Assembly (NCBI RefSeq): GCF_964059095.1
Contig: NZ_OZ060394.1
Location: forward strand, 2,706 to 66,705
DNA length: 64,000 nt
Direction: 5' to 3'
From: Buchnera aphidicola (Chaetosiphella stipae setosa)
GTDB taxonomy: Bacteria; Pseudomonadota; Gammaproteobacteria; Enterobacterales; Enterobacteriaceae
In this document: one piece after another, positions 325 through 57,918 of the stretch
How positions within the stretch are numbered: the first letter of the stretch is position 1
Layout of the letters: every line of letters starts with the position of its first letter
Notes under the pieces: model-generated
Databases searched by the model: none
What the model saw: only the letters and a program-made list of their open reading frames with translations
What the model was told of the DNA's origin: nothing
Position numbers and translations under genes: made by a program

Positions 325-817
325 ATAAATATTAATATAACTCTTTTTTAACGAACGTTTTCTTTTCTGTTTTTTTTTTACATGAAATTTATTTGAGCAT
401 CTCTTATAAAAGTAATTTTAAAAAGACAAAAATAGTTCGTGATTCCATGCTTTTATTAGAAGAAGAGAAAGAAAAATTTAAAAATAAAAAGAAAAAATCT
501 TTTAAAAAAATTCATTCTGAAAAAAAAAATCTCTAATAAATTATAGATAACGCATTAAAAAAAAGATTTTATTATTAAGAATTCTCAAAAGAAAAAGCGT
601 TATTTTAAAAAAAATATTTAATTCAATGAAATCAGAACTATTTATTCTGAAAATGAAAAAATAAAATGATATTAAAAAAAATTCTGTTTTTCTAGATATG
701 AAAATTTTTAAAGAAATTTTAAAACAAAAAATCAAAAAAAAAAAAATTCCAAAAACAAAAAAAAAACATTTTGATCAAAGTATTAAAAAATTTATTTTAG
801 ATTTTACAAGTTTTTAA
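325..817 (+). pseudogene. atpF: Degraded ATP synthase subunit b
   Basis: This is the place and length of atpF, but the frame is broken. The probable start at 325 reads ATA instead of ATG, about ten bases after an AAGGA. A TAA follows at 349-351 because a base is missing from a T run. The conserved membrane-exit segment MKFxWASLIK is readable from 382 but its tryptophan codon is TGA at 394-396. The tail (from about 690, ending TAA 815-817) still resembles the lysine-rich C-terminus in another frame. Several further stops and shifts occur. No functional stator b subunit can be made from it. Confidence 0.8.
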
Positions 818-831
818 ATATTTTTTAAAAA

Positions 832-1348
832 AATTCTTCTTCTTAAATTTCTCTAAATCTATTTTTAATATTGCGATAAGAGAAAGAAGAATTAATAAAT
901 TGAAAAAATTTTTGAATTTATTATCTTTAATTATTCACAATAAAAATATGACATTTATTTGTTTTGAGTATTTTCATTCTTTCATAAAGCATATATTTTT
1001 TTTGAAATTTTTTTACATGATTTTAAAATAAGTTATTCTGAAAAGAATTTATTAAAAATTTTATCTGAAAAGAAAAAATTTTTTTAATTTCAAAAATTTA
1101 TCAAGAATATAAATTTAAAAAAAAAATAATTATGCAAACATTATTGAAGTGATTTTAAAATTTTCTCATAAAATTTATGATGATTAAAAAAGTAAAATAA
1201 TTCATTTTTTAGAAAAATATTTTTGAAAAAAAATTATTTAAAATGTTTTTTAGATAGAAATTTAATTAGTAAAATAGTTATTTTAGTGAATTGATTTGTT
1301 ATTGATTATTTTATTAAATATGATTTAAAAATTTTTTAGAAAATATAA
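832..1348 (+). pseudogene. atpH: Degraded ATP synthase subunit delta
   Basis: The region between the atpF and atpA remnants still encodes delta-like fragments. Near 850 one frame reads SKSIFNIAIRE, resembling the PYAKAAFDFA start of AtpH, and continues into a KKFLNLLSLIIHNKNM segment. Near 1290-1340 another reads FVIDYFIKYDLKI, matching the C-terminal VIDGSVRGRLERL region, and the frame ends at TAA 1346-1348. The parts lie in different frames with several stops between them. Boundaries are approximate; the identity rests on these two fragments and on synteny. Confidence 0.7.
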
Positions 1349-1357
1349 AGAGAAAGC

Positions 1358-2735
1358 ATGATTCAGATCAATTTTATAGAAATTAGTAAAATAATTGAAG
1401 ATAGAATTTTAGATTTCAAAATTAATACACGAATATTATAGTGAAGGTAAAATTATTTCTGTCATCGATGGAATTATTAACATTTATTGTTTAAAGAATT
1501 TTATGTAAAAAGAAATTATTTTTATTCCCTAATAGAAAATATTCCATATTGCTTTCAACTTAGAAAAAGATCTTGTAGGAGAATGATTATTTTAGGTGAT
1601 TTTGAAGATATTCTAAGAAGGAATAATTGCAAAAAGGTGTGCACTAGATCTCTTTTAGAAATAATTCCTTTCGGTAATATTTTTCAGGGCGTAAAGTTAA
1701 TTCTTTAGACATTCCTATTGTGATGGCCAAAGGGGTTCAATTATAAATGATTGATATTATTCTATAAAAAATAACGTACCTATAGTTATTAATCGAGAAA
1801 AAATTAATGAACCTCTTTCAAACTTGGATATTTATCCATTGATTCAATGATTCTAATCGGAAAAGGTTAGAGAGAATTGATTATTTGTGATAAAAAAACT
1901 GGAAAAAACTTCTTTTGCTAATTAATAATATTAATGATCAAAAAAAATTTTGGTGTAAATGTATTTACTTTTCTATTGAATAAAAAATATCAGTTATTTT
2001 AGATATTTCTCGAAAATTAAATTATCATGATGTTTTTGAAAATACAGTTATTGTTTCTGCTTCTGCATCTGATTCAGTTTCTTTTCAGAGTATTTCTCTC
2101 TTGTATTCTGGATGATTCAATAAGAGAATATTTTAGAAATCAAGGAGAAAATGTTTTAATTGTTTATAATTATTTATCTAAAAATGAAATATCGTATAGA
2201 CAAAATTTCTCTTTTATTTAAAAGATCGATCCACCAGGACGTGAAATCATATCCTGGAGAGATATATTTTATTTACATGCGAGATTTATGAGAGAGATCT
2301 TCTAAAGTTAATTTAAAATATTTATCTCATTATAGTAAAAAAAATATAAAAAAAATTGTAGTTTTCATTTTTTTATCGATTATTGAAACGTAGTTAGGAG
2401 ATGTTTCTGATTTTATTCCTACAATATTATTTCTATTACAGATGGATAAATATTTTTAGAATTTTATCTTTTTGATTCAGATATACGCACTTCTGTTAAT
2501 TTAAGAATATCTGTTTCTCATGTAGTAGTGCTTCTTAAAAAGCAATCATTAAAAAACTTTCCACTTGAATTAAATCTTTTTTATCTCAATATTAAGAATT
2601 AGAAGCATTTTCTAAATTTTCTTTAGATTTAGATAAAAATGCTCAAAATCAATTAAATCTTAGAAAGAAAATTATTGAATTATTAAAACAAAAATAGTAT
2701 AGACATTTATTTATTTCAGAACAGTTTATTTTTTT
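1358..2735 (+). pseudogene. atpA: Degraded ATP synthase F1 subunit alpha
   Basis: It starts with a good ATG at 1358 (MIQINFIEISKIIEDRI) but hits stops after about 25 codons. Recognisable alpha-subunit blocks follow in changing frames: EGKIISVIDGII near 1440; the P-loop region near 1845-1910; the block around DDSIREYFRNQGENVL at 2105-2160; and AQNQLN near 2645. The P-loop reads CDKKTGKN where a working one reads GDRQTGKT, and a TAG (1869-1871) precedes it. The 3' end, about 65 codons in relatives, is missing and runs into atpG. Open stretches at 1487-1708 and 2027-2221 are pieces of this gene, not separate genes. Confidence 0.88.
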
Positions 2736-3364
2736 GAAAAAATAAAAAAATAAAAAAATAATTTTTATTCTAATTCTTTCTAGTAAAGGTTTTTTTGGTA
2801 GTTTAAAAACTAATTTGATAAAAAATTTTTTTGCATTTAAAAAATTTTTTATTTTAAAAAAATTTTCTTTTGAAGTCATCATACTTAAAAAAAAGGAATC
2901 TATTTTGATAGAAAATTTGAAAAATATCTTCAAAAATATAATCTAAATTTTTATAAAAATTTTACTTTTTATGAAGTAAAAAATTTCTTAGATAAAATTT
3001 TTTAAAATTATAAAAAAAGAAAAATTGATAAAATTTTTTTTATAATAAATATAATGATTAATTAAATCTACATCCTATAGTTGAAGAGATTGTTCCAATC
3101 CAAGTCTGTAAAAAATAAAATTTATTAAAAATATTTTAGGATTATATTTATGAATTTAATTCTAATTCATTGTATGAAAATCTTTTAAATAGATTTTTTG
3201 TAAAAAAAATTTATTATAGCGTTCTAGAAAATTTAATCGCTGAATATTCTTGTCGTATAATATCTATGAAAAATTCTATAGAAAATAGTTCTAATTGAAA
3301 GTAATATTTATAATACACACATCAAGATAATATTATTCAGAAATTAACTGAAATACTTTCTTAA
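2736..3364 (+). pseudogene. atpG: Degraded ATP synthase subunit gamma, 5' part deleted
   Basis: The first roughly 70 codons are gone in a deletion that also took the 3' end of atpA. The remaining sequence reads ILSSKGFFGSLKTNL (near 2770), the equivalent of VVSTDRGLCGGLN. The C-terminal half is clear at about 3140-3300, with YENLLNRFF, SVLENLIAEYSCRIISMKNS and then a terminal IIQKLTEILS ending at TAA 3362-3364, in more than one frame. A gamma subunit without its N-terminal rotor helix cannot couple rotation. The left boundary is approximate. Confidence 0.82.
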
Positions 3365-3409
3365 ACATCTTCTGTATTAATGGATTAAAAAATATATTGA
3401 GTTTGAAAA

Positions 3410-4860
3410 GTGATATCTTTGGGAAAGATTATTCAAATTATTGGATCTTTAATTAATATAAATTTTTTTCAAGGAAATGTATTTAAAATTTATCATATTT
3501 TAAAGGTAAAAAAAATTCTCTAATTTGCAAAGTTCAAAAACATTTAAGTTCTAATTTAGTTTGTATAATTTCTATGAGTTCTTCAGATGGATGAAAGAGA
3601 GGAATGTTAGTGAAAAATTTAAAACATGCTATAAAAGTTCCTATTGTAAAGTGTACTTTAGGAAAGATTATTAATTTTTTATGTAAGTCAATAGATAAAA
3701 TAAAGATTCTATTTTTAATAAAAAAATATTTCAGAAAAGGAATTTTAGGAAATATATCGATCTCCTACTTCTTATCAGGAATAATCTAATTCTCGTGTTA
3801 TTTTAGAAACTGGAATTAAAGTTATTGATTTAATTTGTCATTTTTTCAAAGGAAGTAAAATTGGATTATTTAGAGGAGTAGGTGTTGAAAAAATTGTAAA
3901 TATGATGGAACTGATAAGAAATTTTTTCTATTAAACATTCTTGATATTCTGTTTTTACAGGAGTCGAAGAACGCGTAAGAAAAGGTTATTATTTTTACAA
4001 TGAAATGAAAGATTCTAAAGTTTTGAATAAAGTGACTTTAGTTTATTTTCAAATGAATAAACCCACAAGAAAACAGATTTAGAGTAGAATTTATTGGATT
4101 AACTTTAGCTAAAAAATTTCAGGAAGAAGGAAAAAGATGTTTTATCTATTATATAGATGATATATTGTTATATTTTAGAAGGAATAGAAATTTCTTCTTT
4201 ATTAGGAAAAATCCTTTTTATAGTCAGGTATTAAACAACTTTATCAGAAGAGATGGGAATTATTACAGGAACGTATTGTACACTTCTACGAAAAATGATT
4301 CAATTACTTTAATCAAATATTTATTTTCCTGCTGATGATTTTATCCTGATCCTGCTCCTATCGTAACTTTTTCTCATTTAGATGCAATTATTACTTAAAA
4401 TCGAAAAATTTCTTCTCTAGAGATTTATCCTGTAATTAATCTTTTAAATTCCAATAGTAATCATTTAAATCTAGAAATGATAGGAAAAAATTATTATAAT
4501 GTTACTTGAAATATTTAATGTGTTTTGCAAAAATATGATGAGTTCAAAGATATTATTTCAATACCGGGAATAGATGTATGATCTGAAAATGATCAATTAT
4601 TAGTTTTTCAAGCAAGGAAAAAATACAAAAATTTTTATCTTCACCTTTTTTGTAGCGGTAATATTTACTGGGTCTACTTGAAAATATGTCAGTGTAAAAG
4701 ATACTATTACTAGATTTAAGAATATATTATTTTGAGAGCCTGATGATATACCAGAAAATTTTTTTATATTGTTGGATCGGTAAAAGAAGTAATAAAAAAA
4801 TTTAAAGAAAATATGAAAAATAAAAAAATACTTAGGTTTTTTATATATCCTTTTAATTAA
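3410..4860 (+). pseudogene. atpD: Degraded ATP synthase F1 subunit beta
   Basis: The remnant is near full length, readable from LGKIIQIIGSLININFF (about 3419) to VGSVKEVIKKF near the stop at 4858-4860. Intervening blocks include the LVKNLKHAIKVPI segment at 3607, the ETGIKVIDL segment near 3810 and the FSHLDAIIT region near 4370, scattered over frames with many stops. The catalytic P-loop near 3863-3895 reads RGVGVEKI in place of GGAGVGKT, so the lysine remains but the glycine and threonine are lost. The start is probably GTG 3410. The open stretch 3604-3789 belongs to this gene. Confidence 0.88.
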
Positions 4861-4871
4861 ATATCACGAGT

Positions 4872-5200
4872 ATGAATAAAAGTATATCACCTTATAGAGA
4901 TATTAAATATATTAATTTCAAGGAGGAAACAGGAAATTTTAGCGTATATTCTAAGAATTCTCAGTTATTAACTTTTAATTCTAGTCCTTTAAAGATAGTA
5001 ATGAAAAGTAAAAATTCAGAATATTTTTATATTTCATAGGAAATTTTAGACGTTCAACAAGAATTTGTAAATTTAATATCTGATTATTTTATAAATATTA
5101 AATATTTAGATGAAAAAAAAAAAAAGAAAAAAAATAAAAAAAATTTATATAAAAAATGAAAAAAATAATTTTTTTTATAAGTCAATTATATGGAAAGTCT
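4872..5200 (+). pseudogene. atpC: Degraded ATP synthase subunit epsilon
   Basis: ATG at 4872, then a frame that keeps the epsilon pattern in weak form: KYINFKEETGNFSVYS (ancestral KIQVTGSEGELGIYP), followed by EYFYIS-stop-EILDVQ, where relatives read EFLYISGGILEVQ. The in-frame TAG lies near 5037. The rest is lysine codons in A runs. The open stretch at 5110-5298 is the decayed 3' end of atpC plus translated terminator and should not be annotated as a membrane protein. Confidence 0.72.
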
Positions 5201-5208
5201 TTTTTATT

Positions 5209-5245
5209 TTAGCGGCGATATTTCTTTGTTATATTTTGCCGCTAA
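5209..5245 (+). terminator. Hairpin between atpC remnant and gyrB
   Basis: A perfect 8-bp inverted repeat, TTAGCGGC (5209-5216) and GCCGCTAA (5238-5245), with a 21-nt loop. It is one of the few GC-rich words in the spacer between two convergent transcription units. The following bases are U-rich only on the + strand. It looks like the old transcription stop of the atp operon, preserved although the genes upstream are dead. Confidence 0.5.
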
Positions 5246-5306
5246 TTATTTATACACACATTTTATATTCTTGGATTGTAAAAAGAAAGAAAATATAAAA
5301 AAAATT

Positions 5307-49300: not shown

Positions 49301-49810
49301 TTATTTTTTTTTAACATACATAATTACATTTTTTCCTGCAACAATTATTTTTCCAATTTTTTTTTCTATAATGTTCATCTTATCTGTATTAGAAATTACC
49401 ACAGGAGTAATAATTGATTTTGCTGTTTTTTTTAATAGTTTTAGGTCTATTTTAATTATTAAATCTCCCTTTTTTACTTTTTGACCTTCTTTTATACAAG
49501 ATTCAAATCCTTTTCCTTTTAATTTTACAGTATCGATTCCAAAATGTACAAAAATTTGTATTCCTTGTTTAGATTCAATTGAAAAAGCATGTAATGTATG
49601 AAAAATTTTTCCTATTTTTCCATCTATAGGTGCAACTATTTTATTTCCGGTAGGATTTATAGCTATTCCATCTCCGACTATTTTTTTTGAAAAAACTATG
49701 TCTGGGACTTTTTTTATTGATATAACATTACCAGAAATTGGAGCAAAAATTTTTATTTTATCATCTAAATGAGCATCTTTTTTTTGAAAAAAATTTGAAA
49801 TAAAGCTCAT
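49301..49810 (-). CDS. crr: PTS glucose-specific enzyme IIA
   Basis: Accepts phosphate from HPr and passes it to the membrane glucose permease. The 169-residue product has exactly the E. coli length and keeps both active-site histidines in [10 protein letters not shown] and [12 protein letters not shown]. The first residues ([23 protein letters not shown]) include the amphipathic membrane-association segment. Last gene of ptsH-ptsI-crr. Its regulatory targets in E. coli, such as adenylate cyclase, are not seen here; sugar transport is the likely sole role. Confidence 0.96.
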
Positions 49811-49838
49811 TATTTTCTCCTATTGATATTTATTATTT

Positions 49839-51566
49839 TCATAACAGATTATTTTCTTTATTAAATTTTTTAAGTAATTTTTTTATTTTTTTTACTGTAG
49901 ATTGTTGAAGAACTTTTTTAGCTAGTATTTTTGCTTTTTTAAAATTAATTTTTCTAATAATATTTTTAATAATTGGTATAGAGATTGAGCTCATACTTAA
50001 TTCATCTATTCCCATACCTACTAGTAAAGAAATTGCTTTTTCATTACTTGCAAGTTCACCGCATATTCCAGTCCATTTTTTTGCTTTATGTGATTCTTTG
50101 ATTACTTTTTTTATTAAATATAAGACGGAAGGACTCATAGGTTGATATAAATTTGAGATAATTTCATTTCCTCGATCTACAGCTAATGTGTATTGCGTAA
50201 GATCATTAGTTCCAATACTAAAAAAATCAACTTCTTTTGCAAGATGTTTAGAAATTATAGCAGATGAAGGTGTTTCTATCATAACGCCTAATTCTATTTT
50301 CTTATCAAATTTTATTTTATTTTTTTTAAGTTTTATTTTGATTTTATTTAATTCTTGTTTTAAAAAATAAATTTCTTCCATAGATATTATCATTGGAAAC
50401 ATTATTTTAAATTTTCCATAAGCTGAAGCGCGTAGAATAGCTTTAAGTTGATCATGTAAAATTTGAATATTATTAATAGAAACTCTAATTGCTCTCCATC
50501 CAAGAAAGGGATTTTCTTCTGGAGGAAAATTCATGTATGAAAGATTTTTATCTCCTCCAATATCCATTGTTCTAATAATAATATGTTTTCCATGCATTTT
50601 TTTTGCAACTTTTTTGTACGCTTGAAATTGTTCTTCTTCAGATGGTAAGTTATTTCTACCCATGAATAAAAATTCTGTTCTGTAAAGACCAATACATTCA
50701 GCTCCATATTTTTTAGATCCAATAGTGTCTTTGTAATTTCCTATATTTGATCCTATTTTTATTTTTTTTCCGTCTAAAGTAATTGCATGTACTTTCTTTA
50801 GGGAAATTAATTTTTTTTGTTTTTCGAAATATTGTTTCCTAATTATTTTGAATTCTTTAATTTGTTGTTTTGACGGATTTATAATAATTTCATTATCAAT
50901 GCCATTTAATATTATATAGTCGTTATTTTTTATTTTTTCTGTAATATTTCCCATTCCAACTATAGCTGGTATTTCTAAAGATCTAGCCATAATAGATGTA
51001 TGAGATGTTTTTCCTCCTAAATCTGTTGCAAAACCGAGTATTTTTTTAAAATTCATTTGTGCAGTTTGAGATGGAGTTAAATCTTTTGTTATAAGAATTA
51101 CTTTTTTTTGAATATTATTTAAATCAATAATAGGTATTTTTAATATATTTTTTAATAATCTATTTCCTATATCTCTAATATCTATTGCTCTATTTTTTAA
51201 ATATTCATCTTTTAATTTTTCTAATGATGAAATTTGTTCTTGAATTATTTTTTCTACAGCATGATCAGAAGTAATCATTTTTTTTTTAATTAAAGAAATA
51301 ATTTCTTTTTCTAATTCTTCATCTTCTAATATTAATATATGACCTTCAAAGATAGACGATTTTTCTTTTCCAAATTTTTTTTTTGCTTGATTTTGTATTT
51401 CTTTTAGTTGTTTTTTTGATTTTTTTCTTGCTTTAAAAAATTTTTCAATTTCTATATTAATATTCTTTTTAGAGATTTTTTTTACGTTAATGTTTATTTT
51501 TTTTTCTTTAAAAAGGAGGGCTTTTCCAAAAACAATGCCTGGCGATGCTAAAATTCCTGAAATCAT
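49839..51566 (-). CDS. ptsI: PTS enzyme I (phosphoenolpyruvate-protein phosphotransferase)
   Basis: Starts the PTS phosphate relay by taking phosphate from phosphoenolpyruvate. The 575-residue product (identical length to E. coli) shows the active-site histidine in GGKTSHTSIMARSLEIPA, the PEP-binding barrel motifs GLYRTEFLFMGR and SIGTNDLTQYTLAVDRGN, and the catalytic cysteine in TGICGELASN. Spacing to ptsH is 96 nt and to crr 28 nt. The last 30 residues are lysine-rich. Confidence 0.97.
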   Translation of the reverse strand: MISGILASPGIVFGKALLFKEKKININVKKISKKNINIEIEKFFKARKKSKKQLKEIQNQAKKKFGKEKSSIFEGHILILEDEELEKEIISLIKKKMITSDHAVEKIIQEQISSLEKLKDEYLKNRAIDIRDIGNRLLKNILKIPIIDLNNIQKKVILITKDLTPSQTAQMNFKKILGFATDLGGKTSHTSIMARSLEIPAIVGMGNITEKIKNNDYIILNGIDNEIIINPSKQQIKEFKIIRKQYFEKQKKLISLKKVHAITLDGKKIKIGSNIGNYKDTIGSKKYGAECIGLYRTEFLFMGRNNLPSEEEQFQAYKKVAKKMHGKHIIIRTMDIGGDKNLSYMNFPPEENPFLGWRAIRVSINNIQILHDQLKAILRASAYGKFKIMFPMIISMEEIYFLKQELNKIKIKLKKNKIKFDKKIELGVMIETPSSAIISKHLAKEVDFFSIGTNDLTQYTLAVDRGNEIISNLYQPMSPSVLYLIKKVIKESHKAKKWTGICGELASNEKAISLLVGMGIDELSMSSISIPIIKNIIRKINFKKAKILAKKVLQQSTVKKIKKLLKKFNKENNLL

Positions 51567-51662
51567 GACATTACCTTTGAATAAAATGAATTATAAATGT
51601 TTAATATGTAAATATTTTTGAAAAATTTTATTTATAAAATATTTTTCTAATAAATAAGTTTT

Positions 51663-51920
51663 TTATATGAGTTTTTTCATTAGAGTAGATAATTTTTCGA
51701 TTGCTTTTTTTTCATCTGATCCATTAGCAGATAAAGTTATCTTGCTTCCTTGACTTAACCCTAATGTTTGTAATTTAAATAGACTTTTTGCGTTTGCTGT
51801 TTTACCATTTGAAGTTATTGTAATTTTTGAATTATATTTTTTTGCTTCTTGCACAAGTTGTGCTGCAGGTCTAGTATGTAAACCATTTGGTGAGTTAATA
51901 TATATTTTTTTTTCAAACAT
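51663..51920 (-). CDS. ptsH: PTS phosphocarrier protein HPr
   Basis: Carries phosphate from enzyme I to enzyme IIA. The 85-residue product keeps the active-site histidine in [13 protein letters not shown] (about residue 15), followed by the [19 protein letters not shown] interaction helix that includes the Ser46-equivalent. Length matches E. coli. In relatives cysK lies next to ptsH; here the 298-nt spacer to the divergent ligA holds nothing recognisable beyond presumed promoters. Confidence 0.96.
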
Positions 51921-56647: not shown

Positions 56648-57460
56648 ATGAACAATAATTCTATTAATCATGATAGTAAAAAAAATAAATCGTTTTTTGA
56701 TGATATTTTTTTTTATTTAAAAAAAAATAAATATATATTTATTTTATTTATGTTTTTAAGTGTAATGATGTTATCTTTTTCTTTTTTTTTAGTAAATAAA
56801 AATAGTTATATCATTGTATATAAAAATATATCTTTAAAAAATAATGTTCAAACAGTTATACAAAAATTAATCTCTTTAAAGATTCCTTACAAATATTCTT
56901 TTGAATCAGATTCTTTATCTATTCCTATCAGTAAAATTGAAATATTTTATTCTCATCTTTATGATATAGAATCCGATAGTAACAATCTTCCAGGATTTGA
57001 ATTATTAGATAAAGAAAAATTCGGTATTAGTTCTTTTCTTGAACAAATAAATTATCAAAGAGCGTTAGAAGGTGAGTTGTCTCGTACTATCGAGAAATTA
57101 AATTTTGTCAAGAGTGCTCGAGTACATATTGTTTGCGCAAAAAATACGTCTTTTTTTAATGAAAATAGTCATTCTTCTGCATCTGTTTTTTTAAAAGTTG
57201 ATGAAAAAATTAGTAAAAATTCAAATTTATATCGTGCAATAATTTTTTTATTATCAGCTAGTATTGTAGATTTAAAGAAAGAAAATATTATTATTATTAA
57301 TCAATATGGAGATGTTTTTAGTAGTAACGGACAAATTATAAATAATCAGGAATATTTAAAAAATACTGAAAATATTAATTCTTTTCAGGAAATAAGCAAA
57401 AATAATACAAAAGAAATTATTATTCCAGTTTTAGGTTTTAAAAACAAAGAAATCTTATAG
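56648..57460 (+). CDS. fliF: Flagellar MS-ring protein FliF, truncated after RBM2
   Basis: FliF normally has about 550 residues with two membrane helices and forms the MS ring. This frame gives 270 residues: the first membrane helix (about 30-50), RBM1 (about 55-115) and RBM2, which is very well conserved (FGISSFLEQINYQRALEGEL, SRTIEKLNFVKSARVHI). It stops at about the beginning of RBM3, so RBM3, the second membrane helix and the FliG-binding tail are missing. No poly(A) tract sits at the stop. Downstream, one frame (about 57450-57555) still reads a hydrophobic segment that could be the old second helix. Either a decaying gene or a shortened protein that still collars the FliP/Q/R gate; the clean conservation of RBM2 makes the second possible. 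Confidence 0.85.
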   Translation: MNNNSINHDSKKNKSFFDDIFFYLKKNKYIFILFMFLSVMMLSFSFFLVNKNSYIIVYKNISLKNNVQTVIQKLISLKIPYKYSFESDSLSIPISKIEIFYSHLYDIESDSNNLPGFELLDKEKFGISSFLEQINYQRALEGELSRTIEKLNFVKSARVHIVCAKNTSFFNENSHSSASVFLKVDEKISKNSNLYRAIIFLLSASIVDLKKENIIIINQYGDVFSSNGQIINNQEYLKNTENINSFQEISKNNTKEIIIPVLGFKNKEIL

Positions 57461-57918
57461 TTTTTTAATATTTATTCTATCTCTTTTAACAATAAATATA
57501 GATTCATGGATAATAGAAAAATTTTTTTACTCGAAAAAATTTGCATATGAAAGATAATTTATATAAATAATTTTTTTCTTTTTCAATGCTTTAGTATTCA
57601 AAAAAAAATTAATTTTTACAAAATCACTTTATTTGAATAATTTTAAAAAAAACAGTTATATAAATTTTATTTGTAAAAAAATTTTTTAATTTGAAAAAAA
57701 ATAAAGAAAATAAAAAAAAAATAAAAAAAAAATAAAAAAAAATAAAAAAAAAATTAAAGTTTTATTATAAATAATTTTTTGAATTTTTTTATTATCTATC
57801 TATTGAAATAAAAAAATTTTTTAATATTTTTATATTTTTTAAGAGATATAAAAAATATTTTTTTATATAAATTTTACATATTAATTTTAATAAATTACAT
57901 TTTTGAGAAAATATTCTT
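57461..57918 (+). other. Remnant spacer where fliF 3' end through fliN would lie
   Basis: This 458-nt stretch separates truncated fliF from fliP. In fuller Buchnera flagellar loci the position holds the rest of fliF and then fliG, fliH, fliI, fliJ, fliK, fliM and fliN. Apart from a possible leftover FliF membrane segment (about 57450-57555, out of frame) I recognise nothing. It contains an A-rich repeat at 57711-57753 and presumably the fliP promoter. Confidence 0.6.
57711..57753. repeat. Short A-rich tandem repeat
   Basis: Four to five copies of a unit of one T plus 8 to 10 A residues. It is low-complexity sequence in the fliF-fliP spacer, probably grown by replication slippage. Confidence 0.7.

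Follow-up and report, generated by a model that had tools for sequence, protein, structure and literature searches.

The stretch of DNA analyzed here (the window; 64,000 nucleotides, positions 2706-66705 of contig NZ_OZ060394.1) is the first part of the 462-kb single-contig genome of the Buchnera of Chaetosiphella stipae setosa, and it opens with the genes of the F1Fo ATP synthase. Using frame-aware protein-to-DNA alignment, we found that seven of the eight atp genes are broken and that atpE is the only intact one. All atp genes in the window lie on the plus strand. The atpE gene (24-266), which encodes the 80-residue subunit c, is preceded by a GGAG ribosome-binding site at positions 11-14 and is followed, over approximately positions 325-5253, by the relics of atpF, atpH, atpA, atpG, atpD, and atpC in their ancestral order. 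Counted against the Buchnera of Sipha maydis (G004), there are 4 frameshifts and 5 stops in atpF (subunit b; 325-799), 4 and 4 in atpH (delta; 816-1356), 14 and 13 in atpA (alpha; 1361-2740), 8 and 6 in atpG (gamma; 2741-3385), and 13 and 12 in atpD (beta; 3413-4827); atpC (epsilon; 4845-5253) carries 1 frameshift, 2 stops, and 8 gap events. The limits of atpF, atpH, atpD, and atpC come from alignment to genome G010. The C-terminal end of atpA and the first part of atpG are deleted, and the edges given for them at this point are our reading of the junction. Together, the six relics contain 86 frameshifts and stops in 1640 aligned codons, and none of either was found in atpE, mnmG, gyrB, or dnaN in the same alignment.

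A preliminary description of this DNA had reported atpF to atpC as pseudogenes beside an intact atpE. Our counts bear this out, but the decay extends further, as atpB is also broken: upstream of the window, at contig positions 2346-2733, approximately the first 115 of its 273 codons are left, with frameshifts and a stop. The description had also noted a deletion running from the last part of atpA into the beginning of atpG, and our alignments indeed join the end of atpA to a late part of atpG near window position 2740. Likewise, both P-loops are lost as it had claimed, the alpha motif GDRKTGKT having become CDKKTGKN and the beta motif GGAGVGKT having become RGVGVEKI when aligned to G010. A run of nine N in a poly-T tract (contig 2697-2705), immediately ahead of atpE and the first base of the window, marks an assembly gap of uncertain length.

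Loss of conserved residues accompanies the broken frames. Among sites invariant in ten sister genomes, 66/230 are changed in atpA and 85/298 in atpD, as against 4/403 in gyrB; among those invariant in nine sisters, the atpA and atpD values are 74/254 and 86/311. A second copy, which the preliminary description had proposed to look for, was not found: PF00006 and AtpA searches of the 462-kb genome turned up no further gene for F1 alpha or beta, and the only PF00006 matches were Rho and the relics. With Rho as the best match outside the operon, we rejected a second working copy elsewhere in the assembly.

To place the loss, we used the GTDB genus sample (g1) of 11 genomes, made up of this Buchnera and 10 genus-mates, which include the Buchnera of Periphyllus lyropictus (G001), P. 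aceris (G003), Sipha maydis (G004), Chaitophorus viminalis (G005), and P. koelreuteriae (G007). All eight atp genes are uninterrupted in 10 of the 10 genus-mates, and AtpA scores above its cut-off in 10 of the 11 genomes, the exception being the genome studied here. In a tree built from 1720 columns of MnmG, GyrB, and DnaN, this genome and G004 are sisters with a support of 100, a value that holds with and without Lachninae in the tree. The grouping places this Buchnera in the Chaitophorinae group, as sister to the Sipha maydis Buchnera within the sampled set. The genome of the latter (462,390 bp) has the same gene order and flanks, mnmG-atpBEFHAGDC-gyrB, with all eight atp genes uninterrupted. 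The comparison with sister lineages, also proposed in the preliminary description, thus agrees with its view of a recent loss, the genes having been inactivated since this lineage and G004 diverged.

The same description had taken the ATP synthase to be kept in the Buchnera genomes known to its author, which is too broad. In the excerpted text of PMC11188193 and PMC3246468, the atp operon is missing in Lachninae Buchnera, and in our data neither AtpA above the cut-off nor AtpE is present in any of the five genomes of GTDB genus g11 (Lachninae, including Cinara Buchnera). The stretch from mnmG to gyrB contains no atp match in any of the five g11 loci, and in one of them (L117) 151 bp separate the two frames. 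When g11 was added to the tree, the genome studied here stayed with G004 (support 100), far from the five g11 genomes, and common ancestry with the Lachninae loss was rejected on this placement. Because this genome is sister to G004 at a support of 100 and all 10 genus-mates keep AtpA, the loss is, on phylogenetic grounds, independent of that in Lachninae. According to the excerpted text of PMC11188193, every other lineage in that paper's sample retains the genes that Lachninae Buchnera have lost; for the atp genes, the present genome is a counter-example to that statement on non-Lachninae lineages. A literature search for an earlier report of this loss found none, although one may still exist.

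We then considered what remains of energy metabolism. All 13 frames of nuoA-N and all five of cyoA-E are full length beside those of G004, which answers the question about respiratory genes that the preliminary description had raised. Changes at sites invariant in nine sisters amount to 16/218 in NuoL, 7/165 in NuoM, 6/112 in NuoN, 6/174 in NuoH, 11/461 in CyoB, and 6/51 in CyoD, a coarse comparison in which G004 was scored against sisters without this genome and this genome against sisters including G004. Of the nuo and cyo genes that offered over 10 usable sites, NuoJ (L122 12938-13480) has the highest value, at 9/52. NuoL and NuoM pass their TIGR models. With the nuo and cyo genes full length, the cell should still oxidize NADH and pump protons. 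As for ATP, PfkA (6-phosphofructokinase) and AckA (acetate kinase) are intact in 11 of the 11 genus genomes, consistent with the glycolytic route suggested earlier, and the genes of the sugar phosphotransferase system (crr, ptsI, and ptsH; 49301-51920, minus strand) were found intact by NCBIfam, as had been claimed; HPr scores above the TIGR01003 cut-off and below the stricter PRK10850 cut-off. Judging from this gene content, with sugar uptake and a route to substrate-level ATP both in place, substrate-level phosphorylation is the likely source of ATP. An Rnf-Nqr family protein was found in 0 of the 11 g1 genomes, with a positive E. coli control, and Rnf was rejected as an alternative energy route. 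A search for a TLC-type ATP/ADP carrier gave no match here but was equally silent in 14 of 14 control genomes, which makes it uninformative.

The intact state of atpE calls for an explanation, as the genes for all seven of its partners (a, b, delta, alpha, beta, gamma, and epsilon) are broken. Its product matches the hairpin family of subunit c, scoring 106.3 bits against NCBIfam NF005363 (cut-off 71) and 89 bits against TIGR01260 (cut-off 43.95). The start codon and the upstream GGAG site are retained, as are the RQPD loop and the ion-binding Asp, which aligns with E. coli position 61. Changes include an Ala to Leu replacement next to this Asp and a Pro to Ser replacement near the loop. One explanation is that atpE became neutral together with its neighbors and is the last piece left by chance, being short, G+C-rich, and poor in homopolymers (only 20 of its 237 bases lie in runs of at least 4). 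Intact length alone is weak evidence of retention, because an open reading frame of 73 residues, the longest on the same strand, survives inside the relics and because the chance of 79 codons staying free of frameshifts and stops at the average relic rate is approximately 0.016, which is not negligible. In a scan that passed over any stretch missing more than 10 codons, 0 of 1170 overlapping 79-codon relic stretches were free of a frameshift or stop.

Substitutions speak more clearly on this point. At first and second codon positions invariant in nine sisters, with expectations matched for base, changes were found at 8/130 sites in atpE, 295/1973 in the six relics, and 59/2397 in three intact genes; in the atpB remnant, the proportion (23/153) matches that of the relics. 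The eight changes in atpE compare with 23.0 expected at relic rates (P = 3e-4), which argues against simultaneous neutrality with its neighbors, and with 2.6 expected at intact-gene rates (P = 0.005). The contrast is clearest at G+C sites, with 4/57 changed in atpE, 167/573 in the relics, and 9/668 in the intact genes. At the amino acid level, 6/51 sites invariant in ten sisters are changed in AtpE (7/52 minus M1N, an offset at the start codon) versus 151/528 in atpA and atpD combined (Fisher P = 0.008), again against chance survival. When relic stretches needed 40 or more usable sites to be counted, 19/1168 changed as little as atpE, which leaves some room for chance, but with a minimum of 100 usable sites the figure is 0/723. 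Fully neutral and fully constrained evolution of atpE both fit the substitution counts poorly, and atpE is intermediate between the relics and the intact genes. By simple arithmetic with a wide error, (8-2.6)/(23.0-2.6), its change is approximately a quarter of the neutral change of the relics. We therefore regard survival by chance as unlikely, though it is the best of the alternatives. Instead, atpE appears either to have lost its use later than its neighbors or to be still weakly selected, two possibilities that one genome cannot separate.

The constraint above the neutral level, together with the retained start codon, GGAG site, ion-binding Asp, and RQPD loop, could also mean that subunit c performs a separate function even in the absence of F1 and subunit a. 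It might act as a membrane proteolipid, or it might ease respiratory back-pressure by leaking ions; the proton pumps that it might serve are intact. Such an orphan kept by selection would perhaps let respiration run as an NADH sink in a cell that has stopped drawing on the proton gradient to make ATP. We know of no established route by which protons cross a c-ring that lacks subunit a. AtpE has, moreover, changed faster than the AtpE of nine sisters tested singly (6/51 versus 7/475, P = 6e-4, a figure that leaves out G006), and the replacements beside the ion-binding Asp and in the loop region also count against such a function. All five g11 genomes keep three NuoL/M/N-type proteins and CyoB without AtpE; therefore, a leak through subunit c is unnecessary for respiration without ATP synthase. 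For this reason, a staggered decay is favored over a new function of atpE, which we consider improbable.

A wider survey bears on how unusual this state is. Of 392 genomes in the family sample, 352 pass the AtpA cut-off, which leaves 39 besides the genome studied here; 33 of these were examined, those with stronger partial matches (G038, G137, G138, G289, G320, and G349) being set aside. None of the 33 has an orphan atpE, and the state is therefore rare or short-lived within the examined set. Both NuoL/M/N-type proteins and CyoB are present in nine of the 33, five of the nine being g11; respiratory pumps without ATP synthase are therefore a recurring combination. Outside g11, the combination of NuoL/M/N-type proteins and CyoB with no AtpA above the cut-off was seen in the endosymbiont-like genomes G073, G105, G134, and G330, the last of which is assembled in approximately 190 contigs.

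Taken together, the loss is real, independent, half-finished, and of a known kind, and we consider it very probable that the F1Fo ATP synthase was inactivated after the divergence from the Sipha maydis Buchnera, independently of Lachninae, with atpE lagging behind. Respiration would now serve to reoxidize NADH and to supply proton-motive force for other uses, and ATP would come from substrate-level phosphorylation and perhaps also from the host. In this sequence of events, atpE would have stayed under purifying selection for a while after the enzyme was lost, or would still be weakly selected, and would now be relaxing; the end point of the same path is visible in Lachninae, where the operon has been excised without trace.

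Several observations weigh against this account. In G006, which has an intact enzyme and a long branch overall, atpE is changed at 7/59 sister-invariant sites, and NuoJ and CyoD of the genome studied here change as much as its AtpE, which puts AtpE within the level of working small membrane proteins. The usable sites in nuoG (2), cyoA (2), and cyoE (7) are too few to judge constraint, and NuoN falls below its NCBIfam cut-offs, with its PF00361 domain passing in 11 of the 11 genus genomes. Gene disruptions and gene content were read from the assembled sequence alone, and the search for a second copy covered the single-contig assembly and not plasmids outside it. Frames broken through assembly or sequencing error, an idea to which the N run beside atpE and the homopolymer-rich DNA lend some color, are very hard to credit and were rejected, as mnmG, gyrB, and dnaN carry no frameshift or stop and the nuo and cyo genes are full length in the same assembly, the relics also contain in-frame stops and have lost large segments (within atpB and at the atpA/atpG junction), and conserved residues are lost in atpA and atpD at rates far from that of gyrB.

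Elsewhere in the window, at 56648-57918, FliF is only 270 residues long, its match covering positions 14-265 of a model with 555 positions. The 458 bp between FliF and FliP contain no plus-strand open reading frame of at least 60 residues, which means that fliG to fliN are missing from this location. The genome has no FliI-like PF00006 protein, and its FliP, FliR, and short FliF remain without the export ATPase.

The genome thus shows that Buchnera has lost ATP synthase a second time and independently, and because this loss is half finished the order of events can be read: catalytic and stator genes would decay first, respiration would stay, and atpE would go last. This raises the questions of what use proton-motive force and respiration have in a symbiont unable to make ATP from them, and of whether subunit c can be useful by itself. 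Like the Lachninae Buchnera, the genome studied here has lost its F1Fo ATP synthase and kept Nuo and Cyo respiratory proteins. The Buchnera of Cinara cedri is described as lacking a respiratory chain in the excerpted text of PMC3246468, and PMC5702781 treats the NADH dehydrogenase complex of that strain together with the absent ATP synthase. In contrast to the Lachninae Buchnera, in which the operon is gone without trace, relics remain here and atpE is intact; crr, ptsH, and ptsI are intact here as well, whereas crr, ptsG, ptsH, and ptsI are among the Lachninae losses given in the excerpted text of PMC11188193. A broken atp gene of Buchnera origin also occurs in the pea aphid genome, where the available portion of PMC2829048 describes a truncated AtpH pseudogene; in that case, however, the copy sits in the host chromosome and the Buchnera operon is intact, whereas here it is the symbiont's own operon that decays.

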